This document shows positions 2,627-61,189 of a DNA stretch of 64,000 nt, piece after piece (within the stretch, counting starts at the first letter, position 1; each line of letters starts with the position of its first letter). Made by a program: the position numbers and the translations under genes. The notes below the pieces were generated by a model. The model was not told the DNA's origin, did not search any database, and was given only the letters and a program-made list of their open reading frames with translations. Origin of the DNA: Hydnum rufescens UP504 (lineage: Eukaryota > Basidiomycota > Agaricomycetes > Cantharellales > Hydnaceae); contig MU128990.1 of NCBI GenBank assembly GCA_014904985.1, forward strand, positions 173,053 to 237,052, written 5' to 3'.

Positions 2627-3099
2627 ATCAGGGATGAATCCTCTCATCAATGAACCACTGGGCAATCAGTATTGTCAATAAAAATGGATGCTCTCCCTTC
2701 ACAACACACTCATATGCAATAGCCACCTTGGTCAGTCATCTAAGCCTACCTAGTTAGGTACCACTTTTGGGGCAGATAATGGTACCTAAGTAGGTCCCAT
2801 CACTATTCCGGCCGAAATGGCCATTTTACGGCCTGCACCTTCTGGCCCAGAATTGGCCGAAATGGCCGAAAATTGGCCGAAACTGGGACTTAGAGAATCT
2901 CAGACTTGCAGGACAGCAGGCCATATGGACTTATCGGTGATAATAGTGTTCCATTTATAATTATTTATTTATTATCACTTATTATACATATATTTGAGGC
3001 CTGCCTAGGCGGGCTTTCTGGTTACCCATTTGCATGTTGAGCACTCACCCAATTAGGACTTATTTATTTATTTATTTATTTAAAAATTCAATTAGTAAA

Positions 3100-3420
3100 A
3101 AAATACCACACCCGCTTGGGCGGGTGTGGTACCGTCCGTAGAAATAAAATAAAAAACTACTTAGTAGCACCACACACCCGCATGGGCAGGTGTGTGGTAC
3201 CGTCCTTAAAAATAAAATAAAAATAAAAAATAAAAAAACTACTTAGTAGCACACACCCGCTTGAGCGGGTGTGGTACCATCCGTAGAAACTTAGAAAAAA
3301 AACTAAGTAGCACCACACCCGCTCAAGCGGGTGTGGCACTGTCCGTAGAAATTTAAAAAAAAAGAACAACCTAGTAGCACCACACACCCGGCCTAGCGGG
3401 TGTGTGGTGCCTTCCGCTTC
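3100..3420. repeat. Terminal array of five short hairpins in E1
   Basis: Five units of about 66 bp each hold a palindrome of the form CACACCCGC...GCGGGTGTG, followed by an A/T-rich stretch and a GTAGAAA or CTTAGTAG motif. They sit outside the longer intron-like cassettes. The mirror-image counterpart in E2 is at about 22495-22690. Confidence 0.8.
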
Positions 3421-4640
3421 TTCATCGGGGCACGGTGGGCTCGTCGCTGGCCATTTCAAGGGAAGGGGGGCCGTGGCTTGGCGGTTCACCGTTGGGCCGG
3501 TCGTTTGGACTGGTCCCGGGTGTCTGTTGGGGTGGGCACACCTGCGGTAGCGGGTGTGTGGTCTGGCCTGGTTTCACTCCTCGGTTCGGCGGTTTCGTTC
3601 GGCACTCGTTTTGGTGGGTCGCGTTGTTGGTTTCCATGTGGCGGGGGCGTTGTCATTCCCTGGGGGGGGTTCCTTTGGCGGGTCTTCATTTTGGTGTTTG
3701 TGGTAAGGCGGTACCTAGAATAATCAATAATGTGTTAGTAAAAAATTAAAACCAGCGTAAAAAGAGCAGCATCTGCTGCTCTTTTTACGCCATTGTGGGT
3801 ACGAGGTTACTTACCTTGTATAGAACCACACACCCGCCGTAGCGGATGTGTGGTTCATGCGGGTTCCGGCGTTGTTTCGTGTCTTCGTTCGGCGTGTCGT
3901 CGTCGTGGGTTTCGGCGGGTTATCGTTTCGGGGGGGGGCAGTTTCCTTTCACGGGTCTTCATTTAAAGCGAGAGCCTAGAATGATGCATGTATTAGTTAG
4001 AAAATTAAAACTGGCGCAAAAAGAGCAGCATTTCGCTGCTCTTTTTGTGCCATTGGGGGTGTACAGCTTTACTTACCTTGTAGTACCACACCCGCTTCGG
4101 CGGTGTGGTACTCGTTCATACCGCGGTCGTGTGCCTTCCTCTATCGGGTTTCGTACGGGGCTCAGGTGGGTTTGGGGGTTGTCGGGCACGGACTCGTTTA
4201 ACCTAGAAACTATAATAAAAAATGAATAATATGTAGTAAAAAGAAAGAAAAAACCTACGCGAAAGGAGCAGTGTATTGCTGCTCCTTTGGCGCAATAAAA
4301 ACTTATCTTAAGATTTACCACACACCCGCCGAAGCGGGTGTGTGGTTTGTCTGGGGGTTCCGTGGTCCTGTGTCGTGCGTCCTCGTTCTGGTTTGTTTGG
4401 CGCTCGTTCTTTTGGCGGGCGCGTTTGTGGCTTTCGTTTTGCGGGGCATTGTCATTTGCGGGGGGGGGTTCGTTTGGCGGGTCTTCATCTTTTTTTGCTG
4501 TATGTACTTTTTCGGCGATAACCTTAGAATAATTAATAACGTGTATTTTTTTTAAAAATTTAACCAAGCGCAAAAAGAGAAGCAGCATTCGCTGCTCTTT
4601 TTTTGCGCCGTAGGGGGAAACTTTTACTTACCTTTATGTA
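3400..4640 (-). repeat. E1 left arm: minus-strand exon/intron-like cassettes
   Basis: Read on the minus strand, from the centre outwards, this arm holds repeated units. Each has a CACACCCGC/GCGGGTGTG hairpin, AAG|GTAAGT, an AAAAAGAGCAGC hairpin, TACTAAC or CTAAT, and TTCTAG. Intron-like segments are 3715-3814 (100 nt), 3976-4076 (101 nt) and 4523-4631 (109 nt). A fourth at about 4203-4312 has a damaged donor (GATAAG). A further degenerate unit lies near 4890-5010. Exon-like spacers are 161 and 126 nt. A 171-codon open frame at 4073-4588 spans one unit, but it reads through the intron-like part. Confidence 0.75.
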
Positions 4641-5089
4641 AGAACCAAAACACTGGCTGAAGGGGGTTGTGTTTTCTGTTTTGGGGCGTTTGATTTGGGT
4701 GGAAGTGTCGTTGGGTGGTTTGTCGTTTTGAGGCCGCTCGATCGGCCCGGTCCCATTTTGCTTGGCGGGTCCTCGTCGTAATTGCGTTTCGGTTTTGTCG
4801 GGTTTTTGCGGCGGGATTTCTTTCGGTGGTCATTTGGCGTATGGTTGTCGTTTTAGTTTTGGTCATTTTTTGGCGGGTTTCGTTCGGTTAAACCTGGACC
4901 AAGGCATGACTTGGAATATTAAAAAAAAGTACGTTAAGTATAAAAAAAATTTCACAAGGCAGCCGCAAGGAGTAGCTTGCGGGCTTACTTCTTTTTGCGG
5001 CTAATTGTATCTAATTGAAGAAAAATACCCTTATTGACCCACAAAACAAAAACCCGATTTTTCAAGCGGGTGTGTTGTCGCGTGGGTCA

Positions 5090-5260
5090 TGGTCATGCAT
5101 GTGCGTTGCTGCTGCTGTTGTGCTTGTGCTTGCTGCGTGCCGTTTTGCTGCTGCTGCTTTTGCTGCTGCTGTGTTGTGTGTGGCTCTTGGCGCTTGCTGT
5201 TTGTGCTTGTTTGGTTGGCTGTGTTTGTCGTGGTGGCGGTTTCGCATTTTGTGCTGGGTG
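5090..5260. repeat. GCT/TGC trinucleotide-rich tract in E1
   Basis: The tract is built of irregular TGCTGC and TGTGCT runs. The equivalent place on the other side of the E2 centre (17965-17998) carries AACAGC/CAGCAG runs, so it belongs to the family rather than being a chance microsatellite. It produces several long cysteine- or glutamine-rich open frames, which I do not regard as genes. Confidence 0.7.
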
Positions 5261-5289
5261 TGGCTGCGTAGTTTGGCGAAATTTCAAGC

Positions 5290-6020
5290 CGGCAATTGCA
5301 AACAAACTCGGCGAAACCCCAAGTGGGTGGCACTGCAAAGCAACGTTACCCAATAGTAAAAACAAAGGCATGTTATTATTTTAAAAAATAAATTACTATA
5401 ATAAAAATATTTTTGCCCAGGAAACCCCGGAAAGAAAAGCCAATGAATTAAGAAGTTCAGAAGGGCTTTTCAATTAAGGCAATTGAGGATGGTAATTGCA
5501 AGAGTGGATTGGGCCAACTTCTACCACATCGAATGGCCCAAATTTAAAATAGTACATTGGGTATATATTTAACACCCCCACGTGGGCGATTTGGAATTAT
5601 TCTCGCGACGATAATTTCGGCATTTTTTTCAATTTTTCACGCTTAAATCTATTAGGGATTTGAAAGGGCGTGAAATTGGAAATGCGATTAATCGTTCGAG
5701 ATAAATCCCCAATCCGGCCCCCAACGAGGGGGTTAATATACCCATTACTAATTTTAATTGGCCCAAAATTTCGGATCTGTTGGTAAGAAAGTGGGCCCAA
5801 ATTCCACTCTGGCCAATAGCCTTTTTCCATGCTTATTTGGGGTCTGACTCTTTTATTCATTTTGGGCTTCCTTCGGTTTTCCCTGGGGGCCAGAATTATT
5901 TATTATTTATTTAGTATTAATCCCTTAAATATACATGCTGTTATATTGTGTTTACTGTGGTTTGGCCAGCACCAGCGGGCTTGGGGCGCTTTCTTGAGGG
6001 TATCGGGGGCAATTGGGCCA
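5290..6020. repeat. Central palindrome of E1, diverged
   Basis: The sequence around 5655 can fold with matching blocks on both sides, for example TTTTTCACGC and GCGTGAAA, and GGCAATTGC- and GGCAATTGGG-like outer blocks. It matches the perfect 320-bp-arm palindrome at the centre of E2 but has more mismatches. By position it would be the shared promoter region if the two arms are transcribed outwards. Confidence 0.65.
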
Positions 6021-6489
6021 GGCATGGAATCTACATCTTGTCCCAGTTCTCCGAACCACCAAAAGGCAAGGCCGGCCGAAAAGGCAAGCGGATTGAACCC
6101 CCACCCGGAAACCCCGCCACTTGCGGGTGTGTGGTCCAACCACAAGTTTGAGTGGTTTTGTCTAGAATACCCAACGGCGCAAAAAAAGGGAAGCAGGCAA
6201 AAGCTTTGCTTCTTTTGGGCTTCCCTTGGGGGACTCTTATACTACCATTTTTCGTATTATCTAAGATTGAAGGGGCCCTTTGAGGGTCAAAGGCACGGAC
6301 GAAAAACCCGCAAAACGAGGACCAGATGGCAGCGCGCCCAAACCAAAAAGGACGGCGCAAAAACGACGCGACAACCAAACGGAACGCGGCCACACGAAGA
6401 CGCCACACGGAAGACGCCAAACACGGAAGACGCACCACACGAGGAATGCGCCACACCGCAACCCATGGGCAACGCGCCAAAATTGACCC

Positions 6490-7370
6490 AGAACCACCAC
6501 ACCCCGCTGGCGGGGCGGTTGTGGTACTTTAACCATAAGGTTTGAGTCCCCGGACCCCCCCGTAAATACCAAAAACCGCGGCCAAAAAGAGCAACGCGGG
6601 AAAGGCTGGCTCTTTTTCCGGGGCTGCTTTCCGGAACTTTACTAATGTGCTATTATCTAGCTGGGGCCTTCGGTTCCAAAAAAACGGGCACCGACGTTAC
6701 CCACAAAACGACCCCAAAACCCCAAACGGCCACGCGACACGCCCCAACGCGACGGCCAAAACCCGCCGACCCCGGCCAATGGGGGGCAAATACTTTGGCC
6801 AACTTCTACTATCTCTGTCTAACGCCGACACGCCCAAACGACTGGAACCACACCACAAAAACGACGTGACATGCGCGCCGCGCCAAACGAGGACGCGACC
6901 ACGCCAAACGAGGATGAAACCGCGCCCAATGCGGGCCCCAGAAATCACACACCCGCCCCGGCGGGTGTGTGGTCCTATATAAGGTGAGTCCCCGTCCCCC
7001 CCTGTAGCTACACCCATGCAAAAAGAGCAGCCAAAGCTGCTCTTTTTGCATGGTGTTTAACTCTTAACTAATTTAAAACTCTTATCCTTTAGGTCTTGAC
7101 TTCCCTTGCAAACGAATACCGACGCGAGCCCCCCCCTGCAACCCCATTTATCAACGCCCGAACAACGGGGCACAGAGAGGACCCGTATGTACGACCCAGA
7201 GTATACGGCCCCAGTACCCCACACTCCCACAGTGGGTGTGGGGTACTACAAAGTATGTTTTCTTTTTTATTTTCACTTCTTGTTCTTGTGGCGCAAAAAG
7301 AGCAGCATAAGCTGCTCTTTTTGCGCTGCGTTACTGTTCTACTAATGTTTCATCAATTATTTCTTTAGGT
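6490..7370 (+). repeat. E1 right arm: plus-strand exon/intron-like cassettes
   Basis: Intron-like segments are 6540-6660 (AAG|GTTTGAG...TTACTAATG...ATCTAG, 121 nt), 6984-7092 (AAG|GTGAGT...CTTAACTAAT...CTTTAG, 109 nt) and 7253-7368 (GTATGT...TACTAATG...TTTAG, 116 nt). Each holds an AAAAAGAGC-type hairpin. The exon-like pieces 6661-6983 (323 nt) and 7093-7252 (160 nt) end in the CACACCC/GGGTGTG hairpin just before the donor. Their lengths are not multiples of three, which argues against a repeated protein-coding exon. Confidence 0.75.
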
Positions 7371-7814
7371 CCTGAACCAGAACCCCCGCGAACCCCCAAA
7401 TACGAACCCGCCGAATGAGACGCCGCAAACGATAACCGCGAACGAGCCCCCACAAACGAAAACCGACTCCCTCGAGGGAGTGCCCAAAGGGAACCGGCCC
7501 CCGACTGGGGGTGTATGGGTATGGGCAGATGTGGGTGCATAACCCGCATGAACCATCTGCCCCCTGTGGTGGCAGACCCCCGGGGGGGGGGTAATATGTA
7601 TATAGTGTAATATGTATATAATAATAGTAGTAATAATAATAATAAATAGTAAACAAATAATAATAAATAAGTATATAATCTAGCACAGCCATGGATTGGC
7701 CGACAGATGGCCCAAAAACTGAATTGGAATGGCCTGATTTCGGCTGTAAGGTTTGGGGGACCTATTAGGTACCATTTTCTGCCCCGAAAGTGGTACCTAA
7801 ATTAGGTCCCCTAT

Positions 7815-9620
7815 GTGACTGACCAGCCTGCAATAGCAGCAGGTCCTTTCATATCTGCACCAGCTGCCAAAACAAATAAACCAGATCATCATCATAATCC
7901 CTTGGGAGATAGAACCAATCAATGTCCTAAGCATCGAATGTATGTTGATGTGCCTCCATGCAGCCCAACACAAGACAAACCTTCAGTTAATCAGCCAGAC
8001 TCATCATCCATGAACCCAGAACCAGTACAGCCAGCCCCAGAGAAATCTCCACAACCAAGTTATCCACCAGGAATACTGCCCTCCTCAATTCTAAACAAAG
8101 CAACAATGGAGAAGCCCACTCATAAGAAAACTAATCCTCCTCAAATTGATCCCCAAGAAGAAATGATAGACATTGAGATAGCTCAACCAGAGAAATGAAT
8201 CCCAAAGAATCCTCCAACATATCATTTCACTACAGACTTTCAAGATGCTTGCAAAGACAAGGAAATAGCAAAGAAGGTGCTAAATCAAACAGTTGAAATA
8301 ACTCTTGGAGACTTCCTTGGAACAGCCCATGGACCTGCAAAAATACTTGCAGCTGGACTTAAACTCAAATGCGAATATAATCCAAAACATCAAGAGCCAC
8401 TCACAGTCAATCATGCTACCATAAAACTGCATTTTCCTGCAACAGAAGCCTCTGATTATGACTCTGATGATGAGGCAGAACTAGAAGACTACTATGATCT
8501 TATGATGATGAAGGATTTGGATGAAGAACCATATCCACAAACACAAACACAAGACCCTCATCAAGTTCAAGTAAATCTTGTAGGAGTCCTTGGACCAAAC
8601 CCTTTGTTCACCATGGATACAGGAAAAATTGTGGCTAAAGCAACAGGACAGAATGGAACCAAAGACATCGTACTCATGATTGACACCGGATCCAAATTAA
8701 ACCTAATCTCCCAGGAAGTCCAACAAAAGTTAAACATCCCAATGGACTATGATGGACAAAACTGGATGTTACAAGGAATCAACAGCAGACCTGAACCTCT
8801 AGTTGGATGCTGCTGAAATGTTCCAATTGAAATAGGAGGGATACGATTCAACCACCACTTCTTTGTCAAAAAGGGAAGCTTTGAAGGCCATGACATACTT
8901 CTTGGACAACCCTGGCTAGTAGGAGTTGGTGCTCAAATCAAATATGAAGGAGCTACAAATGGAATCCACAGAATGGACATTCAAGTCTACAAAAAAGGGA
9001 ACCCATCAGGATCATCAGTTTCTCTCCATGCCCTTATGAACAAATCTAGGGAACAGGATAAACTTGTTCTTGCAGCAGCAGTGATACCACCAGATGAATG
9101 GCCCCAAGATACAAGCAAACCAAGCCCACCACAGCTGCAATATTGATATAGAACAAATGGAGTATCATTGATCCAAACTGCACCCAAACCCCTACCACAA
9201 AATTATGAATACTATCACACAGAGGCAACCCCATCTGACCAATCATTACAAGGAAATTCGCCATTTATTCCAATACTTGGTAGGGAATTGTCAGAGGCCT
9301 TATGACTCCCAGAAATGCACACAAAGGACTTCAATCCAAGCACAAACAAGTACCTCATGGATGCCATTATAAACAAGGAAAGCATATCAGCATGGTATCT
9401 TCACAAAACTTGGAAATTGACCTCTGCAGCATCAGGAAATCAGCTTGAAGACAACCTCATGCGCATTTATAATGAAATAAAGCCAAACCTTGTCAATAAA
9501 TCTCCTGAAAAAGCAGAAAACTTCAGCTATCATATTGGCCAAGTCATCAGGAATGCCAGAAAAATGAAATACAAGACTGTGGATAAGAAGAAAAATCCAA
9601 TACCCTTAGGAGTCACTTGA
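7815..9620 (+). pseudogene. Family A Gypsy protease region, decayed
   Basis: The aspartic protease would cut the Gag-Pol polyprotein. After E1 the frame resumes with a Pro/Ser-rich linker (7838-8198). The protease frame (8277-8816) carries the active-site motif MIDTGS near 8675. The C-terminal flap-side motif HDILLGQPWL, typical of fungal Gypsy proteases, lies near 8890-8920 beyond an in-frame TGA. The frame continues, with more TGA stops, through a linker to about 9620. The DTGS catalytic triad itself is preserved. Confidence 0.8.
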
Positions 9621-9639
9621 AAACCAGTCATTCATCTTC

Positions 9640-12022
9640 CCTACAAAAATCTTCTGCCAATAACACCTCTCACACTTCCCACACATCCCCCTAGCTTGAA
9701 GGACTTCCAATACACCAAGAAACTCACCCCAGAGGGCATTAAAAAGATAATCAAGAATATCCCTAATGACTTCCTTTCAGAAGAAGAACTAGACTTACTG
9801 CTCTATGTGGTTGCTCAAAGGGAAAGAGGTCTCACATTCAATGAATCTGAATGAGGAATCTTCAAGACAGAATATTTCCCAGATTATGTTATGGAAACAG
9901 TCCCTCACATTCCATGGGAACTGCCTCCAATTCATCCATCGAAAGCTATTGTTGCAACACTTATCAAAATGATTAAAGATCAATTGGCAGCTGGAAAATA
10001 TGAAACATCATGGTCTTCTTATTGTTCCCAAATGTTCGCTGTAGCAAAACCTAAAGGAGGCATTCAAATAGTCCATGATTTGCAACCCCTAAACATGGTT
10101 TCTGTTAAAGACTCAGGATTACCACCAAACATCAATGATTTCACAGACAGCTTTGTAGGACACTCAGCCTATATTGTTGCAGATCTCTATGCAGGATATG
10201 ATGGATAATGACTAGCAGAAGAATCCCAAGAACTCACAACAAGTGATTCACCACTGGGACCTGTAAAGCTCACAACATTACCCCAAGGATACACAAACTC
10301 TATGCAAGAATTCATGAAAACAGTCACACACATGATTAGACCTATGATCCCAGACAAAGCTGAAGCCTTCATGGATGATGTAGCTGGAAAAGGGCCAAAA
10401 ACGCGGTACAATGACAAACCAATACCTGAAAACCCAAAGATTTGATGTTACATATGGGAATTTGCTCAGGTTGTTGATGAATTATTTGCCACCTTCATTG
10501 AAGCTGGATGTACAGCCTATGGATGCTGTGGTTCAGGTTTAAACCTGTGGAACCTGAGTTTAAACCTGAACCTGACCCAGGTCAGGTTCCATTGGGGTCA
10601 GGTTTCATTTCATTTTCTTCAGGTCAGGTTCAGGTTTTGCCCTTGCCCTGAATCCAAAAACCAGTCTGAAACCAGGTTTAAACCTGAACCTGAAAGGTAG
10701 GGTGTAGGTTCCATTCCATGTAAATTCACCACTATCCTGGCACCAAATCTGGCAATTTACACATGTGACTATAGTTCTGGAGTCAGAAGTCACATGACCT
10801 GGCCATCAAATGAGGTAATTGGTACAGGTCACAAGTCACATGACAGAATGTAGTGACTAAATACCATCTCCAGAAGATGTGTGAGCAGTAAATTGAAGTG
10901 AAAGGGGGCTAGGAAGGAGATGTGGATCTAAAGCAGGATGTAAAGGGAGTGGCAGAGGCAGAGACTTGAGCAGGGGGTCTAGATATTCTGTAGTACCCCC
11001 TGAAAATGTTGGCTTCCCTCATACCTCAGGTTTCAGGTTTAAACCAGGTTTAAACCTGAACCTGACCTGAATGAGACCGAACCTCAGGTCAGGTTCAGGT
11101 TTTGCCCTCATGGGTGATTTTGGAACCTGGTCAGGTTTAGGTTTTGCCCAAATTGGGCAAAACCTGACCAAAACCTGACCGTGGCAACCATAGTACAGCC
11201 TCTGGATCAAAACTTGTACTTGCTACACCACTTATACATATTGTGGGAAATGTTTGTTCTATGGAAGGAAGAAGACCACATCATGGAATCATCACAAAAA
11301 TAAAAAACTGGCCCTGCCCAACAAATGTGACACAGGCCCATGGATTCCTAGGAACAGTTGGAGTTGCTTGAAATTGGATTTGGCAATTTGCCAAGATAGC
11401 CAAACCTCTCACATTACTCACCAAGAAAACTCCCAATGAATTTGAATGGAATGATCAAGCTGAGGAAGCCATGAATCAACTAAAAGAAGCCTCCACAGAC
11501 CTCCCAGCTCAAAAATCTTTGAACATTGACATAGCCAGAGTATTAAAAGAAGACAAACAAACATCTGATTATGGCCTTGTGACACTTGTAGTGGACAGCT
11601 CCATCATTGCAGTAGGCTGGATCAAATATCAAACCCTGGAAGATGGACATCATCCCATTGTCTTTGGATCAGTAACCAACAACAAAGCTGAAACCAAGTA
11701 TTCCCAGCCATAAATCAAATTAAAGGGGTTGTTTAAAGCACTCAAAGCCCAAAGAAATGACCTCTGGGGAATCCATTTCAAAGTGGAAGTGGATGCCAAA
11801 TTTCTAAAGCAAACTATCAACACACCAGGATTACCAAATGCAGCTATATCACAATGGATTTCATATATTCAGCTGTTTGATTTTGAATTATCGCATTTTC
11901 CAGCAACAAAACACCAAGGTCCAGATGGATTATCCAGGCACCCAGCACATGAAAATGACTCAGTCAACTCAGAAGATGAACTAGAACCAGATGAACCAGG
12001 CCATTTTATTACTGGGCCATGA
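9640..12022 (+). pseudogene. Family A Gypsy reverse transcriptase and RNase H, decayed
   Basis: Reverse transcriptase copies element RNA and RNase H removes the template. Visible blocks are HIPWELPPI, FAVAKPKGGIQIVHDLQPLN (near 10030-10100), ADLYAGYDG, LTTLPQGYTNSMQ and the polymerase motif FMDDV (near 10370), a variant of YxDD. The frame is then cut by a MITE (10518-11192). It continues with the connection segment FLGTVGVA and an RNase H-like part, ending in the Gypsy hallmark GPDGLSRHP near 11925. Stops are mainly TGA where family members have Arg (CGA). RNase H preceding integrase fixes this as Ty3/Gypsy. Confidence 0.85.
10518..11192 (+). mobile_element. hAT-like MITE, copy M1
   Basis: This 675-bp element has ends TATGGATGCTG and, reverse-complemented, TATGGTTGCCAC, flanked by the exact 8-bp duplication GTACAGCC (10510-10517 and 11193-11200). 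The subterminal regions are packed with AGGTTTAAACCT palindromes and CAGGTCAGGTT repeats, as expected for transposase-binding sites. It has no coding capacity. It splits the RT frame cleanly: removing it and one duplication restores it. Confidence 0.92.
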
Positions 12023-12049
12023 TCTCTTGAAGAATATGAACACTGGATC

Positions 12050-13560
12050 TTGCACAGTTCCTCAGCATCCATGTTATCAACAACAAGAATCAAAAGGGAA
12101 TCCTATGAAGACATCATTGAATTCAGGCAAAATAACACAGTACTCTCAATCAAGCCACAGGAAAATACAACAAGAAATGGTGGATTTGTGGCTCTCTCCT
12201 ATCAAGCCCACTCATCTGTTCAAAACCATCCCAAAGCACTCTCCCAACATTCACAGTCCCAACACTCAGAAACTGATTCAGAAATTAAAGAACACACTCT
12301 CAAACTCAAGGATTCTGATGGAAAAGACTATTGTGAAAGGATCCAATACTACCTGGAACACATAAAAATACCCCCAGGAGTCAAGAACACCAAGACATTC
12401 ATTCAGGCCACCAAACACTATTTTATGTATCAAGGAACCCTGTGGAGAAGACCTAGAAATGGCCAATTACCATTAAAAGTTATCAAGAACCCAGATGATC
12501 AAGCTTGCTTATGTAAGGCTGCACATGACAAATCAGGCTACCACAGATGAGACCTGACTTTCAAGAAATTATCTGATAGATTCTTCTGGCCAAATATGCT
12601 ATCCTATGTGGCCTGGTATTGCTGGACATGCCATGAATGCCAATTAAGGTCTACAACCCGACCAAAAATCACTTTAAGCCTGACCTATGTTAATACCATA
12701 TTACATAAATTTAATATGGACATGGTCCATATGCTGGTATCAAATGGATTCAAATATATCATGGATCTTCAGGACAATCTCTCCAGATGGCTGGAAGCAA
12801 AAATGTTACATAAGGCCTTGAGTAAGCATGTTGCCCAGTTTCTATTTGAGGATGTCATGTGCTGGTTTGGCTGTGTATTACAAATCACAATGGATAACGG
12901 AATGGAATTCAATGGACTAGTTCAAACAATGGCAGATGAATATAATGTTCCAATTGTCTGAGCTGCCCCTTATCACCCAGAAGCAAATGGAATGATAGAA
13001 TGTGGGCACAGGACCTGGATAAACTCACTATTCATTGCATGCAAAGGGAACCTGAGCAAATGGTCAAACTATTTTTATTTGTGCATGTGGGCAGACCAAG
13101 TGACAGTAAAATGAACAACTGGCTACACCCCCTATTACCTACTCTATGGAATAAATCACATGTTTCCATTCAATATCACAGACACATCATGGTACACATT
13201 AAAATGGGGAACTATCCAAACCACAGAAGAATTACTAGGAATCTGTGGAATCCAATTGGTGCATGGAGACAAAGATATTCAAGCTGCCTCAAATACCATC
13301 CTTCAAGCAAGAATTTGAAGTGCTCAGGATTATGCCAGACGAAATGAAAACACATTGGTCGACAGAAACTATCAACTGGGTACAATTGTACTGGTATTCA
13401 ATTCAGTATTACAAATGCAACATGGATGAAAAGGGGAAATACAGTGGATTGGGCCATACCAAGTTCAGCATCACCATCCCCATGGATCCTATCAACTGGC
13501 AGAATTAGATGGCACCCCAATCAATGGAATATTTGCTGGAAACTGCTTAAAGAAATACCA
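12050..13560 (+). pseudogene. Family A Gypsy integrase, decayed
   Basis: Integrase joins the cDNA to host DNA. The zinc-binding HHCC motif is visible (KAAHDKSGYH near 12520 and CWTCHEC near 12625). So are the DDE residues: D in NMDMVHM (near 12720), D in ITMDNGMEF (near 12890) and E in HPEANGMIE (near 12985). The C-terminal part carries TGYTPYYLLYG, characteristic of Gypsy integrases, and a chromodomain-free tail. The frame is broken by several TGA stops and one or more shifts. Confidence 0.85.
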
Positions 13561-14468
13561 TATGTGCAACCAAATAGCCACAATGGACATCACTGGGAAT
13601 GAGAGCCACAGTGCCATGGACCAAGAATTAAATCAAAATAATATAGCAAAATGTGCAAAAAATATGGACCAAGCTATGAAATATGGGGGAACAACAATTA
13701 CAACAAAACAGCACTTCCTGGTATCACTTGGACCAGAAAATCAATTGAGAACCTATCTTTGGCTGCCACTGAGAGCTACAGATTCATGGGGCTATTGGGA
13801 AAACAAAATTGTGGAGTGGAAATGAAGGAACCTTCTATAAGAACTCCTAGGGAACCCCTTGGAGGAGCCCCAGATCTCCAAATCCACTTATGAATCCCCT
13901 GAAGAGACTCCATAAAAGGAAAATTCAATTCTCAAAAAGGAAATCCCTGAAATATTTTTTTTACAAGCTGCATCACAAGACCACAACTAAAACTATGGAT
14001 TCAAGATGACCCTAGAGCATGAGGCAAAGAAAATCCTGAATTAACACCCCTAGAGCCATGGAATGTTGAATTGCAGAATGTGCCGAAACTCATGAAAACT
14101 CTTTCTGACCATCTTAAAAAACCTGCAGCTGCATCAAAAATCAACATCCCTCCCCTTCTGGTTCCTCTCTCTATATGGCTATGTAACCCTCTGCACTCCT
14201 GACTGATTGCCACAAAGTCTAACTTAACAATATGGCATAATGAATTCTGGCAACCCTTCATCTTTTCATTCTCATTCCATTTGGTATCTATTGTCCACAC
14301 ACAACAACTCCATCGACCTGTCAACTAAATTATCTCAGCTGGTATCTAAACTACAACAAGGAATGGCCAAATAACATCAAACATGAGTATAGTAAGCCCC
14401 AATGAGTATAAAAATGGCATGATGACTAACCAACGACACCCAAGCCCGCTTTCCACATCCATTGTACC
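13561..14468 (+). other. Segment between integrase and third ORF, no clear gene
   Basis: Open stretches (13562-13825, 13651-13893) follow the integrase frame but are broken. The sequence at 14100-14330 can be read as a hydrophobic peptide with stops (WHNEFWQPFIFSFSF). I recognise no domain. Confidence 0.4.
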
Positions 14469-15560
14469 TTGTCAAAGCCATCCTCTCTCAACATGTCTGA
14501 CTCCACTCATTTTGATTCAACTGTGACCTCTGTTCAAAGCTATATGTTAAAATACATCCAAATGCCTGCTCCCTCCCCTACTCCACCCATGCCACTTGTA
14601 GAACTCAACCTGGATGGAGACATCTTCCTTTCATCTCAAGTCAAAAAGGAACAAAATGTAACCAACAAGGTATGGAATGTGGGTCAACCAAAAAAGACAT
14701 TGCTAATGACAAATCAGACCTTTTGGCCTGATTCTATCTCCTCTTTGCATGCTATTGTCAAGAATTACAACATCAATGAATCCTCTACCAATGTGCAGCC
14801 ACTCTCAGGGCTCAAAACCCAGCAAACCATTGACCCTTGTCTCACATTGTGTCCCCAGACCATTAATCTCTACCCACATGCTATACTTCCTCCATCCATT
14901 CCTCTTCCCACTCAACCCTCAAAAGAACCTGAATTGATTCAGAAGAACATCGTCAGTCACCAGACAACTCCTACTGTGCAGCAGTTGGATGAATCCTCAG
15001 ACTCTCCCACAGGGTCTCTCACCTTGAAAAGCACTCATTCTTCATATCATCCTTCCCATCAGTCCTATTCTCCTTCCCAGCCTCCTTGCACACCCTGCAG
15101 CCTTCATAAAATCAGTATACCATGACCTGGCAAAAATGCCAACTCTTACTGCACATGGCCATCCTATTGACAAGTGATTATAGATTGCAAGTACAATGCA
15201 GTGCAGAAACTTGACAAGATCCAATGCAAGTATGAAGAGAAGCAAAAGGAGGATATAAAGGACAATGCAGAACTACTTGACCAGTTAAGTCATACCATCT
15301 CCAATCACAACCTTCAAATGGATTCTCTCATGCCACCCCTCTCTCTTCTTTCAGCAACCCTACATCAACAAGAAGCTGACCTCAAGGTGAAAGCCAAAGA
15401 CCTCAACAGACATGACCTCAAACTCTTACAACATGAGCAGTGTGTAACCAATTGGCATGATTGGTTACTCTATCCGTCTACATATCACCATGTTACCCAA
15501 GTCAACTGTCTCACTAAAATCTTTATCCAAGCCAGGCTGGTCAGTCAAATTGGGGACCTA
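14469..15560 (+). pseudogene. Family A third ORF downstream of integrase, 5' part
   Basis: An open frame of 218 codons (14469-15125) follows pol, and a second open piece (15174-15532) continues it after a few stops. The first part is rich in Ser, Pro and Thr. The second has heptad-like spacing around KLDKIQCKYEEKQKEDIKD, which suggests a coiled coil. It is cut at 15533 by E2 and resumes at 23021. No family is recognised. It has neither a signal peptide nor an obvious membrane helix, so an envelope role is not supported. Confidence 0.5.
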
Positions 15561-15979
15561 ATTAGGTACCATTTTCGGGGCAGAAAATGGTACCTAATAG
15601 GTCCCCAGACAGTATGGCCAAAACATGGCCAAAATACAGCCATTCTGATTCATTTCAGCCAATCCATGACTGTGCTATATTATATGTTTATTTATTGTTA
15701 TTATTATCATTATTACTACTATAATTATATACATATTATGCTATATACATATTATCCCCCCCAGGGTCTGCCACCACAGGGGGGGGATGGTTCCTGCAGG
15801 TCACACACCTGCATATACCCACCACACCCGAGTGGGGTCCATATGCCCTGGTTGGGGCTGGGTCCATTTGGGCACTCCCTTGAGGGAGCGGATTTTCATT
15901 CATGGGTGCTTGTTCATGGTTTTTGTTTGCGGCATGTCATTCAGCGGGTTTGTGGTTGGGGGTGTACATGAGTTCTGGT

Positions 15980-17170
15980 TCAGGATCTAGAGAAATTAAA
16001 AATGAAAGATTAGTTAAACAGTAATGCAGCACAAAAAGAGCAGCTTATGCTGCTCCTTTTGTGCCACAAGAATAAAAAATAAGAAGAAAAAGAAAACTGA
16101 CCTTGCAGTACCCCACACCTGCTGCAGTAGGTGTCGGGTACCGAGGCCCTGTACTATGGCTCGTACATACAGTGGGTTGTATAGGTCCTCCCTGCGGTTT
16201 TCATTTGTGGGGGGTTGTTTGTGGGTTTCATTCATGGCATGTCATTCTGTGGGTTTATGGTCAGGGGTTTGGGCGGGTTCTGGCCAGGATCTAGAGAAAT
16301 AACAATAGGTTAGTAAAAAATGAATGAATGCAACACAAAAAGAGCAGCATATGCTGCTCTTTTTGCACCACGAGAATAAGAAATGAAACAATAAAAAATA
16401 CCTTGTAGTACCCCACACCCACTGCAGTGGGTGTGGGGTACTGGGACCATACTCCGGCTCATGTATGGCAGTTTGTGCAGGTCCCCCAGGACCTTGTCGC
16501 TTGGGTGTCAATAGGTGGGGTCAGGAGGGGGGGGTTGTGTCAGTATTTGTTGGTGTGAGAAGTAAAGACCTACAATAGAGAGTTATAAATTAGTTAAGAA
16601 TTAAGCACCACGCAAAAAGAGCAGCTTTCGCTGCTCTTTTTGTGTGGTTGTAGCTATGGGGGCAGTGACTCACCTTAAATAGGACCACACACCTGCCATG
16701 GCGGGTGTGTGGTTCCTGGGCCCTCATATGGTGTGGTCATGTCCTCGTTTGGCGCATTACCATATGTTGCATCCTCATTTGGTGCGTTGCCATGTATCGT
16801 GCTGTTTGGCATGTTGCCATGTGTCGCGTCATGGGTGTGGTGCTGTGTGTCACGTTGTTGGCATGGTGCCATGTGTTGTGTTGTGGGCATGGTGCCATAT
16901 GTCGCATCATTGGTGCTGTGCCATATCTCATGTGGTGGGTGCATTGCCATATGTTGCATCATTTGGGGTGTCTTCATTTGGGGTGTCTTCATTCAGGGCA
17001 TTGCCATTTGGGCCCTCATTTCATGGGTTTTCATCATGCCTTAGACCCCAGGTCTCAATCTAGAAGAATACAAGATATGTTAGTAAAAAGATTCAAAGAG
17101 GCACAAAAAGAGCAGCTTCACTGCTCTTTTTGCACCATTGTATCTACAAGCAAAAAAAACCTCACCTTAT
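15980..17170 (-). repeat. E2 left arm: minus-strand exon/intron-like cassettes
   Basis: Read on the minus strand, intron-like segments lie at 15987-16101 (donor GTCAGT, 115 nt), 16291-16401 (GTATTT, 111 nt), 16570-16673 (GTGAGT...CTTAACTAAT...TTGTAG, 104 nt) and 17060-17165 (GTGAGG...TACTAACA...TTCTAG, 106 nt). Each contains the AAAAAGAGCAGC hairpin. The exon-like spacers are 189, 168 and 386 nt and start, on the plus strand, with the CACACC/GGTGTG hairpin. Confidence 0.78.
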
Positions 17171-17260
17171 GACCACACACCCACTGTGGCAGGTGTGTGG
17201 TCATACACTTGCCTTTTCAGGTGGTTCATTGTTGTGGTTGTGGAGATGAAAAGAAGATGC

Positions 17261-17915
17261 AAAATTCAATGCCGGCAATTGCCGATACTCAAGAAGCGCC
17301 CAAGTGCTGGCACCACAAGCACAGTACACAATAGTAGCAAGCATGTAGATATGGAATAGATAATATATAATAAATATTTATCCAATAAAATGTGAAGAAG
17401 AAGAAAATAATGAGTCAGAGCTCAATAAGGCATGAGATGGCTAATTGCAGAGTGGATTGGGCCACTTCTATCCATCAGAATTGGCCCAAATTTAAATATA
17501 GTAATGTTATATATACACACTACATGGGTGATTGATTATCTCGGACAATTCTTGCATTTTTCAAATTTTCACACCTTCAATTCCTATTTAGGGAATTGAA
17601 GGTGTGAAAATTTGAAAAATGTGAGAATTGTCCGAGATAATCAATCACCCATGTAGTGTGTATATATAACATTACTATATTTAAATTTGGGCCAATTCTG
17701 ATGGATAGAAGTGGCCCAATCCACTCTGCAATTAGCCATCTCATGCCTTATTGAGCTCTGACTCATTATTTTCTTCTTCTTCACATTTTATTGGATAAAT
17801 ATTTATTATATATTATCTATTCCATATCTACATGCTTGCTACTATTGTGTACTGTGCTTGTGGTGCCAGCACTTGGGTGCTTCCTAAGTATTGGCAATTG
17901 CCAGTGTTGAATTTC
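17261..17915. repeat. Central palindrome of E2, arms about 320 bp
   Basis: The two arms are nearly perfect reverse complements around position 17588, with a loop of about 7 nt. The arms include an A/T-rich TATATATAAC/GTTATATATA block that could serve as a TATA region in both directions. The cassette arms read away from this point on both sides. Confidence 0.9.
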
Positions 17916-18598
17916 ACAACTATGCAGCCACACCCAGCAACAGAAAGGCAGCCACACAACCATGACACAACAGCAACAGCAACAGCAGCAGCCCTAGTGC
18001 ATGACCATGACCACATGACCACACACCCACTGAGGTGGGTGCATGGTCATAAGGTAAGTTTTGTCTCAATACATACAATAGTGCAAAAAGAGTAGCACAA
18101 GCTACTCTTTTTGCACTGCTGTGAATTTTTATACTAACATAGCCTTTATTATTCCAGACCAAAACCAAAACAAATGACAGGCTGCCCAATGAGTGGCCCG
18201 GGCCCCAGTGGAAATATGCAAAACCACGTGAAACGAAACGAAATGAAGCCAAATGAAACCACACCCAACCCCATCCCAAACCCAACAAAACCACACCACA
18301 CCCAATGAAACAACACCAAGTGAAAACATGAGAGGTGGCCATGTGAACCACACACCCACTGCAGCAGGTGTGTGGTTCTATACAATGTAAGTAATCTTGT
18401 GCACCCCCAGTGGTGCAAAAAGAGCAGCAAATGCTGCTCTTTTTGTGCTGGTTTTAAATTTTTAACTGATAATGTTTTATTCTAGGTATCACCACAAATG
18501 AAGACCCATGGAGCGAGCCCCCCCCTGAGATCAAACTCCCACAAAATGAGACCTCTGAGTGACAATGTGCCAAATGAAGACATGAACCACACACCCAC

Positions 18599-19819
18599 TG
18601 TTGGAGGGATAAATCCCTACACCCTAGAAACCCCATCCAAGGCCAATTTTCTAACCAACCAAACAAATGAATTGATCATCCATCCGATCCTTAATTTTCA
18701 CATTGTTCATTCACTGGAGAAACAATCCAAATTCTACACGTCCAAAACCCACCATTCCACATCGTTCCTTTGCGTTAAGGGTGAAGAATTGTGATTATGT
18801 AATGATGTGGACTGTGCCTGGCCTTCGTTCTGGACCCGCGGACCTGTCACATGATTCAAAAAGGGATTATGTCACTCTAAAGGAGTATTTTTCGAATTTC
18901 TCCGTCATTTTTGATCAGATCTACTCGAAACGACCGCGCCCAGAAAGATACGAGTCGTACCTATTGAACCGTACCAAACACAAAACGAACGGATCAAAAC
19001 TGCGGTCCCTGTAACTATATCTTTTCATGATTCATACTCTGAAGGAGTATTTCTTGATTTTCGAAGCCAATTCTTATCGTATTCGTTCGCGAGTACCACT
19101 CCCGGAAAGCTGTTAAAAATGCACATCGAACGGTACCAAGGGCAAAACGAATTGACGAGAACTCCATTTTTCACAAGACAACCCCTTCCTCATGACTCCC
19201 CCCTTGCTCCACCAACACAAATGACAAATTGGTTCTGGCCCACTTAATTCCAATGCAAAGGACACTCAGGGCGACCTATTCCACCATTTCTTAAGGGAAT
19301 CTATCCAGTTTCAAGGCAGGAATGCCTTGTAAAGTGTTTTTTTGTCTCTTTTCACTTGATTCTTGAATATCTCCACCAGTTTTGAAGCTTTTAGCTTCAT
19401 TTCTTTTTCATTATGCTTCCCTTATCTCCGCTTTTCTTCCAAAATTTTGAATTGTGGTCTGGAATGTATATAAAGGGGAGGGGGCATGTAAATATTTGGT
19501 TTTTCCCCCTATCACAGTCTGAGGCACTGAAGTATTGCCACTGTTTGGAGGAGATTTCCCACTTGTCAAGACTGTGTACAGCCGCATTAAGACTGAATAG
19601 TCAAGAGGATGACTTTAGGGTGTGGCCTTGACATCTTAATTTTGTGATGCTGATCTATTCCCTTGAGCAACCACTGTTCATTGGGATTTTCTATTAACCA
19701 GAAAGACCTTCATTTCCCTGGACCTGAATATTTGAATTGTCCCCATGGCTCCCTTCTTTTGTCCTATCCTCAATGACATGGACAGTAGTTGGATTGGTTT
19801 AATAACCATCCTGCTTACA
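18599..19819 (+). repeat. LTR-like repeat, family C, copy C1, inside E2
   Basis: It starts TGTTGGAGGGATAAATCC and ends ...CCATCCTGCTTACA. It interrupts a CACACCC/GGGTGTG hairpin of E2. A TATA-like GTATATAAAG lies near 19466. Blocks around 18880-19150 resemble part of the family A LTR (AAAGCTGTTAAAAATGCACAT), so the two LTR families share a module. I find no clean 5-bp duplication, so the exact ends are uncertain. Confidence 0.65.
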
Positions 19820-21002
19820 CCATGGTAGCGGGTGTGTGGTTCTATACAAGATAAGTAATTAGTGCACCCCCCCCCCCTCACCAACACAAAAAGAGCAGCC
19901 CTTGCTGCTCTTTTTGTGTTTGTTTTAATTTTTAACTAATAAATTCTCTATTATTCTAGGCTGCCACCTGAACCACCTGCCAAACAAACCCCCTCTCCAC
20001 AAAATGACAACGCAACATGCCAAGGAACACCTCAGATGAAACCTGGGACCAAGAACGCACGACAGGGCCACAGGGACCCCAGACGAACCACACCCGCTTC
20101 AGCAGGTGTGTGATAATTCTAAGGTAAATACAACCATGCAAAAGGAGCAGTGTATGCTGCTCCTTTTGTGTGGCTCTTCTTTTTTTTCTTTTACTAACAT
20201 ATTTACTATTCTAGATGGTCAAGCAAAATGACAACCTGCCAAACAAACCTGCCCAACACCCCCCTGGGAATGATGATGCGACCCACCAAAACAACATGTG
20301 CCAAATGAAACATGCCAATGACGACTGGCCAGACCAAACCCAAGAGAGTACCACACACCCACTTCAGCAGGTGTGTGGTAATTTTAAGGTGAGTACAACT
20401 GTGCAAGAGGAGCAGCATACACTGCTCCTTTTGCATGGCTTCTCTTGTTTTTTTTTTTACTAACATATTATTTATTATTTTATTTTGTCATCTGGACCCA
20501 ACACCCACGACCCTGCCAAATGAACACAAGAGAACAACAACCCACCTGCCAAAGGACCCAACACCCATGACCCCACCGAATGAACATGAGAGAACAACAA
20601 CCCACCCACCAAATGAATCCTGCAAACAGCAACAAGTCGAAACCACCATGAAAGCCCCAGACAAACCCCACACCCACTTCAGCAGGTGTGTGGTAATTTT
20701 AAGGAGAGTACAACTGCACAAGAGGAGCAGCATACGCTGCTCCTTTGTGTGGCTTTCCTTGTTTTTTTTTTTTTAAATTTTTTACTAACATATTATTTAT
20801 TATTTATTTTGTCATTTGGACCCAACACCTGTGACCCTGCTGAACAAACACAGGAGAACAACAACCCACCCACCAAATGAATCCTGCAAACAGCAATGAG
20901 TCAAAACCATGACACAAGCCCCAGACGAACCCCACACCTGCTGAAGCAGATGTGGTAATCTTTAAGGTAAGTATATATATACATGTCCAACTATGCAAAA
21001 GG

Positions 21003-22308
21003 TATGGATGCTGCGGTTCAGGTTTAAACCTGTGGAACCTGAGTTTAAACCTGAACCTGACCCAGGTCAGGTTCCATTGGGGTCAGGTTTCATTTCATTT
21101 TCTTCAGGTCAGGTTCAGGTTTTGCCCATGCCCTGAATCCAAAAACCGGTCTGAAACCAGGTTTAAACCTGAACCTGAAAGGTAGGGTGTAGGTTCCATT
21201 CCATGTAAATTCACCACTATTCTGGCACCAAATCTGGCAATTTACATTTCTGGAGTCAGAAGTCACATGACTTGGCCATCAAATGAGGTAATTGGTGCAG
21301 GTCACAAGTCACATGACAGAATGTAGTGACTAAATACCATCTCCAGAAGGAGATGTGGATCTAAAGCAGGATGTAAAGGGAGTGGCAGAGGCAGAGACTT
21401 GAGCAGAAGGTCTAGATATTCTGTAGTACCCCCTGAAAATGTTGGCTTCCCTCATACCTCAGGTTGCAGGTTTAAACCAGGTTTAAACCTGAACCTGACC
21501 TGAATGAGACTGAACCTCAGGTCAGGTTCAGGTTTTGCCCTCATGGGTATGGTTGCCACAGTCAGGTTTTGGTCAGGTTTTGCCCAATTTGGGCAAAACC
21601 TAAACCTGACCAGGTTCCAAAATCACCCATGAGGGCAAAACCTGAACCTGACCTGAGGTTCGGTCTCATTCAGGTGAGGTTCTGGTTTAAACCTGGTTTA
21701 AACCTGAAACCTGAGGTATGAGGGAAGCCAACATTTTCAGGGGGTACTACAGAATATCTAGACCCTCTGCTCAAGTCTCTGCCTCTGCCACTCCCTTTAC
21801 ATCCTGCTTTAGATCCACATCTCCTTCCTAGCCCCCTTTCACTTCAATTTACTGCTCACACATCTTCTGGAGATGGTATTTAGTCACTACATTCTGTCAT
21901 GTGACTTGTGACCTGCACCAATTGCCTCATTTGATGGCCAAGTCATGTGACTTCTGACTCCAGAACTATAGTCACATGTGTAAATTGCCAGATTTGGTGC
22001 CAGAATAGTGGTGAATTTACATGGAATGGAACCTACACCCTACCTTTCAGGTTCAGGTTTAAACCTGGTTTCAGACCGGTTTTTGGATTCAGGGCAAGGG
22101 CAAAACCTGAACCTGACCTGAAGAAAATGAAATGAAACCTGACCCCAATGAAACCTGACCTGGGTCAGGTTCAGGTTTAAACTCAGGTTCCACAGGTTTA
22201 AACCTGAACCACAGCATCCATACTCATGGGTGATTTTGGAACCTGGTCAGGTTTAGGTTTTGCCCAAATTGGGCAAAACCTGACCAAAACCTGACTGTGG
22301 CAACCATA
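21003..22308 (+). mobile_element. hAT-like MITE copy M2, split by a nested copy
   Basis: The outer copy begins TATGGATGC and ends GCAACCATA, with the exact 8-bp duplication GCAAAAGG (20995-21002 and 22309-22316). The target was the AAAAGGAGCAG hairpin inside an E2 intron-like segment. The copy is continuous across 21547/22231 once the nested MITE and one duplication are removed. Confidence 0.92.
21548..22222 (-). mobile_element. hAT-like MITE copy M3, nested inside M2
   Basis: This 675-bp copy is inserted in reverse orientation into M2, with the exact 8-bp duplication CTCATGGG (21540-21547 and 22223-22230). The opposite orientations make this locus a long inverted repeat of almost the entire element. 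Confidence 0.93.
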
Positions 22309-22494
22309 GCAAAAGGAGCAGCAGGGGCTGCTCCTTTTGCCTGGTTTTTCTTTTTTTAACTAATTTATTATTTATTATCATAGGTATTCTTCTGAACCCG
22401 CATCCCCCAACTGAAGCCACGACTCTGCTGAGTGAAAACACATGACCATGGGTGAGGGGGAACCCCAATGGTGAAGCGTGAAATAATGTCCCTG

Positions 22495-22690
22495 GTACCA
22501 CACACCTGCCCAAGTGGGTGTGTGGTGCTACTAGATAGTTGTTATTTTAATTTTTTTTGTTCTTTGATTTCTATGGACAGTATCACACACCCACTAGAGT
22601 GGGTGTGTGGTGCTACTAAGTAGTCTTTTTTTTTTTTGATTTCTACAGAGTACCACACACCAGAGTGGGTGTGTGGTATGATAATAAATA
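22495..22690. repeat. Terminal short-hairpin array of E2
   Basis: Three hairpins of the form CACACACC...GGTGTGTG with CTACTAAGTAG and TTTCTACAG spacers mirror the E1 array at 3100-3420. Confidence 0.75.
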
Positions 22691-23020
22691 AATAAATAAT
22701 AAGAATGAAACATGGACTCCTGAATGAAACCCCGCTGACCTGGGGTAGCATAAGTATAATATAGTGATAATAAATAAATAATTATAAATGGAAGATATTA
22801 TCCCCAATAAGCCCATATGGCCTGCTGCAAGTCTGAGATTCTCTAAGTCCCAGTTTCGGCCAATTTTCGGCCATTTTGGCCAATTCTGGGCCAGGAGGTG
22901 AAATCATAAAAATGGCCATTTCGGCTGAAATAGTGATGGGACCTACTTAGGTACCATTATCTGCCCTGGAAGTGGTACCTAACTAGGTAGGCTTAGATGA
23001 CTGACCAAGGTGATCCAAGC

Positions 23021-25738: not shown

Positions 25739-25781
25739 GAGGAGAGGAGGTAGAAGGGATAAGGAAGATGTTTGTGGGGTC

Positions 25782-26416
25782 TATGGTTGCCACGGTCAGG
25801 TTTTGGTCAGGTTTTGCCCAATTTGGGCAAAACCTAAACCTGACCAGGTTCCAAAATCACCCATGAGGGCAAAACCTGAACCTGACCTGAGGTTCAGTCT
25901 CATTCAGGTCAGGTTCAGGTTTAAACCTGGTTTAAACCTGAAACCTGAGGTATGAGGGAAGCCAACATTTTCAGGGGGTACTACAGAATATCTAGACCTT
26001 CTGCTCAAGTCTCTGCCTCTGCCACTCCCTTTACATCCTGCTTTAGATCCACATCTCCTTCTGGAGATGGTATTTAGTCACTACATTCTGTCATGTGACT
26101 TGTGACCTGCACCAATTACCTCATTTGATGGCCAAGTCATGTAACTTCTGACTCCAGAACTATAGTCACATATGTAAATTGCCAGATTTGGTGCCAGAAT
26201 AGTGGTGAATTTACATGGAATGGAACCTACACCCTACCTTTCAGGTTCAGGTTTAAACCTGGTTTCAGACCGGTTTTTGGATTCAGGGCATGGGCAAAAC
26301 CTGAACCTGACCTGAAGAAAATGAAATGAAACCTGACCCCAATGGAACCTGACCTGGGTCAGGTTCAGGTTTAAACTCAGGTTCCACAGGTTTAAACCTG
26401 AACCGCAGCATCCATA
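25782..26416 (-). mobile_element. hAT-like MITE, copy M4
   Basis: This 635-bp reverse copy has the exact 8-bp duplication GTGGGGTC (25774-25781 and 26417-26424). It sits in the leader between the family B LTR and gag. It is shorter than M1 and M3 because it lacks part of the central region (GTGTGAGCAGTAAATTG block). Confidence 0.92.
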
Positions 26417-26532
26417 GTGGGGTCAAGGAGATGAGTTTTGATCTTCTGTCAGGGTGACACTGCTGTCGAAGCCACAAACAGAAAGAGGAAAGAGATTAAT
26501 TAACCACACACTATTGCAGTGGGAATCCTGAG

Positions 26533-28251
26533 CATACACCACACAACAAGGGACACACAAGTCTCGCACCTATTGCATGTTGGATTTACACTTGGTGTCA
26601 GTGGACAGGTTATAATTCAGCAGGGAAAATACACAATGTATGTACCACAAATATATAGGAGTTAGAGGGCAATAAATCACCCAGGGTAACAATGCAGGGC
26701 TACCACAACTGCTGATAAAGTGCCTCACCAAAGTGCTGATAGAGCATTGGGTGTCAGCTGACCTCTGAGTTGGCTGCTACCTCCAAGTATCCTTCAGCAC
26801 CTCCAACAGTCCTTGGTCGGTGCCTTTGGCACCTCAGACTTGTCTGTGGTGTTGGAGGGATAAATCCCTACACCATAGAATCCTCATCCGAGGCCCATTT
26901 CCCTTACAAATGAATCAATTATATGTCACCATGCTCATTTAAATTTATCATCATTCATTTATTCAAGAAATCAATTGGATTCCCACCCCTTTCCAACTCA
27001 TAATATCACCTCATTCCTTTACCATGTCCACCAGTCAATTTATTGACTATCTGTCAGACTTCAACAGTCCTCATCAAAAAGAGGCAGTTTATGCCCTACA
27101 TCAAGTCCATTTTCTTTGGACAAGGCAATTCAACTTGCCATTCTTCCTCAAGACTGTATGGCTTGTCTGTTCTTCCAAGCCATCCTACTGCCTTAAGGGT
27201 GACAAATTGTGATTATGTAACAACACGGACCGCGCCTAGTTCCAATTCTGGACTCATGGATCCATCACATGATCCAGATAGGGGCTGCACTACTCTAAAG
27301 GAGTATTTTCGAATTTCTCCATCATTTTTGATTGGATCAACTCGAAATGACCATGCCCAGAAAGATATGAATTATACCTATCGAACAGTACCAAACACAA
27401 AACAAACAGATCAAAAATGCGGTCCCTGTAATGATATCTTGCCATGATTTATACTCTGAAGGAGTATTTCTTGACTTTCAAAGCCAATTCTTATCAGATT
27501 TGTTTTCAAGTACCATGCCCTAAAAGCTGTTAATAATGCACATCAAACGGTACCAAGGGAAAAACGAGTGGACGCGAACTCCATTTTTCACAAGACAACT
27601 CCCTCCTCATACTCCCCCTTTGCTCCACCATTCAAAATAGCGAATTACTTCTGGCCCTCTTATGTCCGATGGAGAAGACCCTCAGGGAAACCTATTCCAC
27701 TTTTCCTTAAGGGAACTTGTCCAAATTTGAAGGAGGAATAGCATGTAATGTGTCAATCTCCCCTTTTATCTTGAAATTGGAATATCTCCATCAGTTTTGA
27801 AGATTTTAACTTCATTTCTTTTTCTCTGTGTGTCCCTTAAGTCCGACTTTTTCACTTTTTATTGAGTCAAAGTCTGTATTGTATATTAGGTGCAGCTAGC
27901 ACACAAATTCATTAGTTCTCCCCCTCCCTCCAGTTTGAAGCTCCTTGAACAGCTGCTGGTCCCTGGGTGATTTCTCACTACAAAAAGCAAATTATAACTA
28001 CACTTTGACTAAGGTCTCAAGAAGAGATTCTTAGGGTGTGGTAATCTGACTGAAACACACATTTCCACTTAATTGCTTGGGCTTTGTTGGCTCACTGCAA
28101 TTTCCCCTGTTCAAAAGACCTTCCCCCACTCAGACCTGAACATCCAGATTAGTTCTCTGATTCCCTCCTTCATCCCCAGCTCAACCTTGTGGACAGTAGT
28201 TGGATTGGTTAATAACCATCCTGCTTACAGCAGACTTGCACTGCCAACATC
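26533..28251 (+). repeat. Insertion containing family C LTR-like copy C2
   Basis: The 16-base sequence CAGTGGGAATCCTGAG is present just before (26517-26532) and again just after (28252-28267). The uninterrupted LTR has it once. Within the insert, 26850-28229 matches C1 (TGTTGGAGGGATAAATCC...CTGCTTACA). The first 317 bp are of unknown origin. Confidence 0.65.
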
Positions 28252-61176: not shown

Positions 61177-61189
61177 GCGTCCCCGGAAC

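Follow-up and report, generated by a model that had tools for sequence, protein, structure and literature searches.

Candidate serial introns in mirrored, hAT-like foldback elements of Hydnum rufescens

Introns are unexpected in a mobile element without coding content, and two large elements of the fungus Hydnum rufescens UP504 appear to carry them in series. What are these elements, and what could keep splice signals in their arms? The elements, E1 and E2, lie in a stretch of 64,000 nucleotides of contig MU128990.1 (assembly GCA_014904985.1, positions 173,053 to 237,052 of the forward strand), hereafter the window, whose numbering is used throughout. An initial annotation of the window had proposed that both are giant palindromic elements without a transposase, whose arms hold exon-intron-like units pointing away from the centre, and that these are transcribed, spliced and perhaps a source of new introns. 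We favour, with a probability of about 0.68, the reading that E1 and E2 belong to a family of foldback-like, non-autonomous hAT-type elements whose transcription runs outward from a palindromic promoter and in which serial U2-type introns are kept by selection on the element. If the units are spliced, a benefit other than protein production must act on the element itself, and the thousands of natural variants would allow tests of ideas on RNA export that depends on introns, on escape from silencing and on RNA interference (RNAi) coupled to the spliceosome.

Ends, palindromes and units of E1 and E2

Short inverted ends CASSYTGGTCAGTCA are found at both ends of E1/E2-type elements, and flank comparison places both elements of the window between exact 8-bp target duplications. 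E1 (2724..7829, left end CACCTTGGTCAGTCA) lies between copies of GCAATAGC at 2716..2723 and 7830..7837, and E2 (15533..23012, left end CAGGCTGGTCAGTCA and, in reverse, right end CACCTTGGTCAGTCA) between copies of ATCCAAGC at 15525..15532 and 23013..23020. The CACCTTGGTCAGTCA and CAGGCTGGTCAGTCA ends recur at other loci. The right end of E1 terminates in CAGCCT, one G shorter than the E2 type, and one of its bases may be shared with the target duplication. The inverted ends start with CA, in agreement with the hAT consensus, and together with the 8-bp duplications they support a hAT-like class. The limits and related ends first given for the elements are upheld by these flanks and recurring ends, and the proposed absence of a transposase also held: six open frames in or overlapping E1 and E2 matched no transposase family in Pfam, giving three weak matches (E 0.0047 to 0.15) below the cut-offs. 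Rfam at gathering scores gave zero matches in the window.

The central palindrome of E2 (17255..17921) has arms at 17255-17584 and 17592-17921 that are 96% complementary around a dyad near 17588, with TATATATA-like sequences about 75 bp either side of the centre (17508-17517 and 17661-17669). By eye, a dyad like CACCTTCAATTCCCTAAATAGGGAATTGAAGGTG lies at the centre of E2, L064, L065, L078 and L083 and, degraded, of E1, that is, in six of nine elements. We read the palindrome centre as a putative bidirectional promoter. The long inverted arms built of repeated units that characterize foldback elements are shown best by L082, a near-perfect palindrome whose mirrored arms agree at 94% over 1.44 kb and carry introns at mirror positions. 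In 11 elements, 51 units could be oriented clearly, and every one of them faces outward from the palindrome centre (three centres were placed by hand, and L066 was excluded), exactly as had been claimed for the signals on each side of E1 and E2.

The arms of E1 and E2 are serial arrays of exon-intron-like units. Each unit runs from a GC-rich exon hairpin (CCACACACCCGC..GCGGGTGTGTGG) through a few bases to the donor AAG/GTRAGT (the slash marks the exon-intron boundary), a second hairpin (CAAAAAGAGCAGC..GCTGCTCTTTTTG), a T-rich stretch, the branch site ACTAAY and the acceptor TTCTAG. Scripted calling, with false calls on the antisense arm set aside, yielded 11 complete introns, 91-116 nt long, in the two elements, in line with the earlier count of at least ten spliceable-looking segments. 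In E1, two lie on the minus strand, at 3715..3814 (100 nt; AAG/GTAAGT, ACTAAC, TTCTAG) and 3976..4076 (101 nt; AAG/GTAAGT, TCTAAC as called, TTCTAG), and two on the plus strand, at 6984..7092 (109 nt; AAG/GTGAGT, ACTAAT, CTTTAG) and 7253..7368 (116 nt; AAA/GTATGT, ACTAAT, CTTTAG). The left arm of E2 holds four on the minus strand: the first intron at 17060..17165 (106 nt; AAG/GTGAGG, ACTAAC, TTCTAG), followed outward by 16570..16673 (104 nt; AAG/GTGAGT, ACTAAT, TTGTAG), 16291..16401 (111 nt; AAG/GTATTT, ACTAAC, CTCTAG) and 15987..16101 (115 nt; AAG/GTCAGT, ACTAAT, CTCTAG). The right arm holds three on the plus strand: the first intron at 18054..18157 (104 nt; AAG/GTAAGT, ACTAAC, TTCCAG), then 18387..18485 (99 nt; AAT/GTAAGT, ACTGAT, TTCTAG) and 20124..20214 (91 nt; AAG/GTAAAT, ACTAAC, TTCTAG). 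Four of the five junction pairs named in the initial annotation coincide exactly with these calls; the fifth, 6540/6660, was not called by the script and has a donor that is weak by eye (AAG/GTTTGA).

Two right-arm features of E2 have limits set by eye. An intron at 20967..22383 (plus strand) owes its size to another repeat, lying between its donor and its hairpin at about 21003-22310, and has an intact 103-nt relative in L062, L063 and L064; an unrelated insertion occupies an exon at approximately 18600..19830, part of it repeated at 27306-27605.

Conservation across the genome

The assembly searched (63.2 Mb in 539 contigs, the window included; host placed near Hydnum, Cantharellales) holds the units in their thousands, as expected if E1 and E2 have relatives elsewhere. 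A search with 561 bases of a central arm returned 189 matches, and the exact hairpin core AAAGAGCAGC N3-6 GCTGCTCTTT occurs 3683 times, against 0 for a backwards control. The branch motif ACTAAY follows the core at 12-40 nt in 1433 + 1525 = 2958 matches on the two strands (matches rather than hairpins, since some hairpins match in both directions), compared with 30 + 18 = 48 for the permuted ATCAAY of the same composition. This is an approximately 62-fold difference, and the count is independent of any choice of orientation. The donor AGGTRAGT stands 15-40 nt upstream of the 8-bp core in 828 matches per strand, and a looser donor gives 1469 + 1306 matches, in which a single hairpin may count repeatedly.

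The fetched loci contained 274 usable hairpins, 237 of them unique, and 230 were aligned after seven with weak signals had been dropped. The conserved blocks in this alignment are the donor, the branch site, the acceptor and the two hairpins, with weighted frequencies mostly of 0.8-0.98, whereas many spacer and exon-start columns drop to 0.3-0.6. For the signal counts a slightly different removal of duplicates left 238 unique units, of which 231 were kept and 7 dropped for weak signals. A perfect donor is present in 83 of the 231 (36%) versus 0.1% in shuffles, and an exact ACTAAY in 176 of the 231 versus 6.5%. Median intron length is 105 nt (205 units), and the median distance from the branch A to the first YAG is 20 nt (210 units); one unit class has a YAG immediately past the branch, and some acceptors were thereby called too early and the introns too short. 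Donor, branch site and acceptor thus follow one another in the order and spacing of U2-type introns. Far from being lost at random across copies, the splice signals are much more conserved than their neighbours. Loss of CpG varies among elements (observed/expected 0.23 in E2, 0.99 in L082); the splice signals contain no CpG, and spacer columns that are free of CpG are also variable.

The predicted junctions also appear in gene models. Two queries returned 4 and 10 matching models (in the second set, three with E of 0.02 to 3), and all came from Hydnum rufescens in a database that also holds other Cantharellales. They look like over-prediction on the element family, and model P0125 matches the genome of the window at up to 95% per exon. 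Peptides crossing junctions predicted in silico were found in 10 of the 14 models, at 18 places, which means that the element family enters gene catalogues. One-sided in-frame shifts of donor or acceptor abolish the match in 10 of 11 cases and leave one model match in the other; equal shifts of both sides by 1-2 bases give 17 or 18 places with a nearly unchanged peptide and so provide no control. The E2 left-arm intron at 15987..16101 corresponds, via L054, to the junction peptide GVGYCK/ILNQNP in P0125 and P0126. With unit classes assigned by eye, the intron at 16291..16401 goes with GVGYYK/ILAR (P0126, P0127), that at 16570..16673 with GVWSYI/RSSLL (P0125, P0126, P0127) and that at 17060..17165 with VCGHK/IEA (P0128, P0133, P0134). 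At 12 of the 18 places we judge that the model junction falls at the donor that follows the exon hairpin.

Weighing the explanations

Could the arrays be what is left of a gene? A multi-exon gene in which one exon-intron unit was duplicated may have lost its protein, and its splice signals would then be leftovers with no present role. The units are plainly duplicates of one another, some unit classes are defective across a whole subfamily, and the longest open frame through the true exons exceeded that of shuffles at P < 0.05 in one of eight arms (L063L, 220 codons, P 0.022), with two further arms near the threshold (P 0.056 for L082R, and 0.058). After eight tests, that single P value is unconvincing as a sign of coding exons. 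An earlier run was set aside: 10 of its 11 arms had P >= 0.05, and several of the arms, including the outlier L082R (307 codons), contained false antisense-arm introns. Against a relic, divergence is far greater in exons and spacers than in the splice signals, and exon lengths do not come in steps of three. A conserved protein is unlikely in view of the model P0121, a single protein in which one exon start is read in three frames; we found no single conserved reading frame of the kind a protein-coding repeat gene would have, and the proposed non-coding nature of the elements stands. We consider a decayed gene unlikely.

The repeated hairpins may instead serve the DNA, as transposase-binding or recombination sites in which splice-like motifs are incidental. 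Repeated units in the long inverted arms of Galileo hold transposase-binding sites (PMC3688188). Double changes in the stems persist after related units are clustered (A-T/G-C at pair 8; G-C/C-G/A-T at pair 2), and five intron stretches, one of them shifted by one base, all fold into a hairpin (z -4.2 to -7.7; -7.7 for 6984..7092, -6.7 for 7253..7368 and -7.0 for 18054..18157). In the centroid structures the first two intron bases are unpaired in four of the five and the last bases in all five. G-U is not above A-C in the exon hairpin (128 versus 156) or at intron pairs 14-15 (62 versus 67), so that pairing at the level of RNA is not clearly indicated at these positions. At intron pairs 16-18, G-U exceeds A-C by 180 to 41 when sequences are counted, although by 15 to 7 over 31 clusters. 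The G-U excess as a mark of RNA pairing is thus uneven and suggestive at the outer intron pairs only, with the opposite trend in the exon hairpin. A role in DNA would leave unexplained the roughly 62-fold preference for ACTAAY over its permutation, the shared direction of donor, branch and acceptor relative to the centre, and the use of predicted junctions by gene models, and we regard it as quite improbable. The suggestion that single units leave the arrays to become introns of host genes fared worst. Fungal introner-like elements, themselves introns, resemble the units in having internal symmetry or inverted repeats (PMC8469720), but all eight sparse strict matches that were fetched, chosen by eye among the listed places of the search for AGGTRAGT plus the 8-bp core, adjoin further units. 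In this small sample, which is no systematic search of host genes, single insertions of the introner kind did not appear, and a source of new introns is very improbable.

We return to outward-transcribed, non-autonomous elements with selected introns, and several observations count against this reading too. The central dyad was not seen by eye in L079, L082 and L066 as extracted (three of nine elements). Of the three copies with both ends in view, E1 and E2 have the 8-bp duplication and L063 has no matching flanks. The repeated units with canonical splice signals are confirmed and prove less tidy than first described; in the copies examined, three unit classes of E2-type elements have a faulty donor or acceptor: one has AAGATAAGT in place of AAGGTAAGT, and two have no TTCTAG acceptor in the copies listed, one of these also carrying a damaged donor in E2 itself (AAGGAGAGT). 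Because units were searched for by their hairpin and oriented by their splice signals, part of the conservation is ascertained. Five of the 18 model junctions, by our reading, use a GT inside the exon hairpin, and one is doubtful. Intronless retro-copies of spliced RNA gave 0 matches for the two junction patterns searched. Finally, a hAT gene with the ends of the family was not found among 10 of the 90 loci with a PF05699 match, inspected with about 1.5 kb of flanks; six of the ten carry end-like sequences, with weak resemblance only (up to 3 mismatches allowed).

From the sequence we infer transcription of the elements, splicing in cells, a transposase in trans and a benefit, as follows. The palindromic core would be a bidirectional RNA polymerase II promoter, and each arm a non-coding transcription unit read outward, built by serial duplication of one exon-intron unit. 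Each candidate intron is of a compact U2 type, about 105 nt long, and has a hairpin that separates the donor from the branch site; each exon ends in its own GC-rich hairpin just ahead of the donor. Most likely the introns would be spliced out in succession, so that the hairpin-bearing exons end up joined in a chain, while movement would most likely be driven in trans by a hAT transposase and transcription and splicing would be independent of it. With efficient serial splicing, a self-complementary repeat transcript could be treated like any ordinary product of polymerase II instead of entering RNAi based on RNA-dependent RNA polymerase (RdRP). The host assembly holds 24 pieces matching RdRP genes, and RNAi is likely in this host because such genes are present; a long self-complementary repeat transcript would be its natural target. 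Avoidance of RdRP-based RNAi is the benefit that we would put first, although its probability is low. The broader proposal is only tentative, namely that this is a non-coding DNA transposon whose success depends on splicing, with selection keeping two mirrored intron series since spliceable transcripts evade RNAi or serve as decoys in spliceosome-coupled silencing. If it is true, thousands of transposon-borne introns would make up a sizeable share of the introns of the genome.

Other features and comparison with known systems

Several further observations concern the elements. The AAGATAAGT replacement of AAGGTAAGT is common to two different unit classes, an E2 unit near 19844 and E1-type units in L031, L036 and L059, and may be a shared loss or a GA donor. 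Compared with E2-type copies, the central part of E1 has many short, often homopolymer-like insertions and a CpG observed/expected of 0.97 (not depleted), which may reflect odd mutation or assembly trouble. More ends of the E1/E2 type lie at 28658-32102 (CAGGCTGGTCAGCCA at 28658 on the plus strand, CACCTTGGTCAGCCA at 30769 and CAGGCTGGTCAGCCA at 32102, both on the minus strand), with no intron-hairpin units between them. The other repeat, rich in AGGTTTAAACCTGAACC, has nearly identical pieces at 10518-11192, 21003-22310 (the one within the E2 intron), 25781-26417 and 30770-31685. Elsewhere, the window contains a long gene (33885-36230) that has a 138-nt repeat unit and encodes a TPR protein, whose best match is a Hydnum rufescens protein at 62% identity, a short 17-nt tandem repeat (CGGGCATTGAGGCCACA-like, 44963-45149) and a repeated cluster (45213-62873) in which related kinase-like gene pieces lie in both orientations, one piece matching PF07714.

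Like non-autonomous hAT elements, E1 and E2 have short inverted ends, 8-bp duplications and no transposase match, but they are 5-7.5 kb long with serial introns, and the 10 of 90 loci inspected yielded no partner transposase. In Cryptococcus, the spliceosome-coupled RNAi of transposons called SCANR reportedly ties the splicing of transposon transcripts to RNAi; in the present host only RdRP genes were seen, and action of the pathway here is conjectural. Galileo of the P superfamily in Drosophila, and foldback-type elements in general, share the long inverted arms of tandem repeats and the variable arm length, whereas the ends and 8-bp duplications of E1 and E2 are hAT-like and their units have introns, which the abstract of PMC3688188 does not mention for the Galileo repeats. 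Introners and fungal introner-like elements likewise consist of repeated U2-type introns with an internal hairpin or symmetry, and some introner families have DNA-transposon ends (PMC9860276 and PMC8469720); in the sample taken here, by contrast, the introns stand in series inside one transposon and not singly in host genes. The open literature searched describes no non-coding transposon with serial, mirrored introns. On this comparison the E1/E2 family would be best described as foldback-like by build, hAT-like by ends and similar to fungal introner-like elements in the form of their introns.

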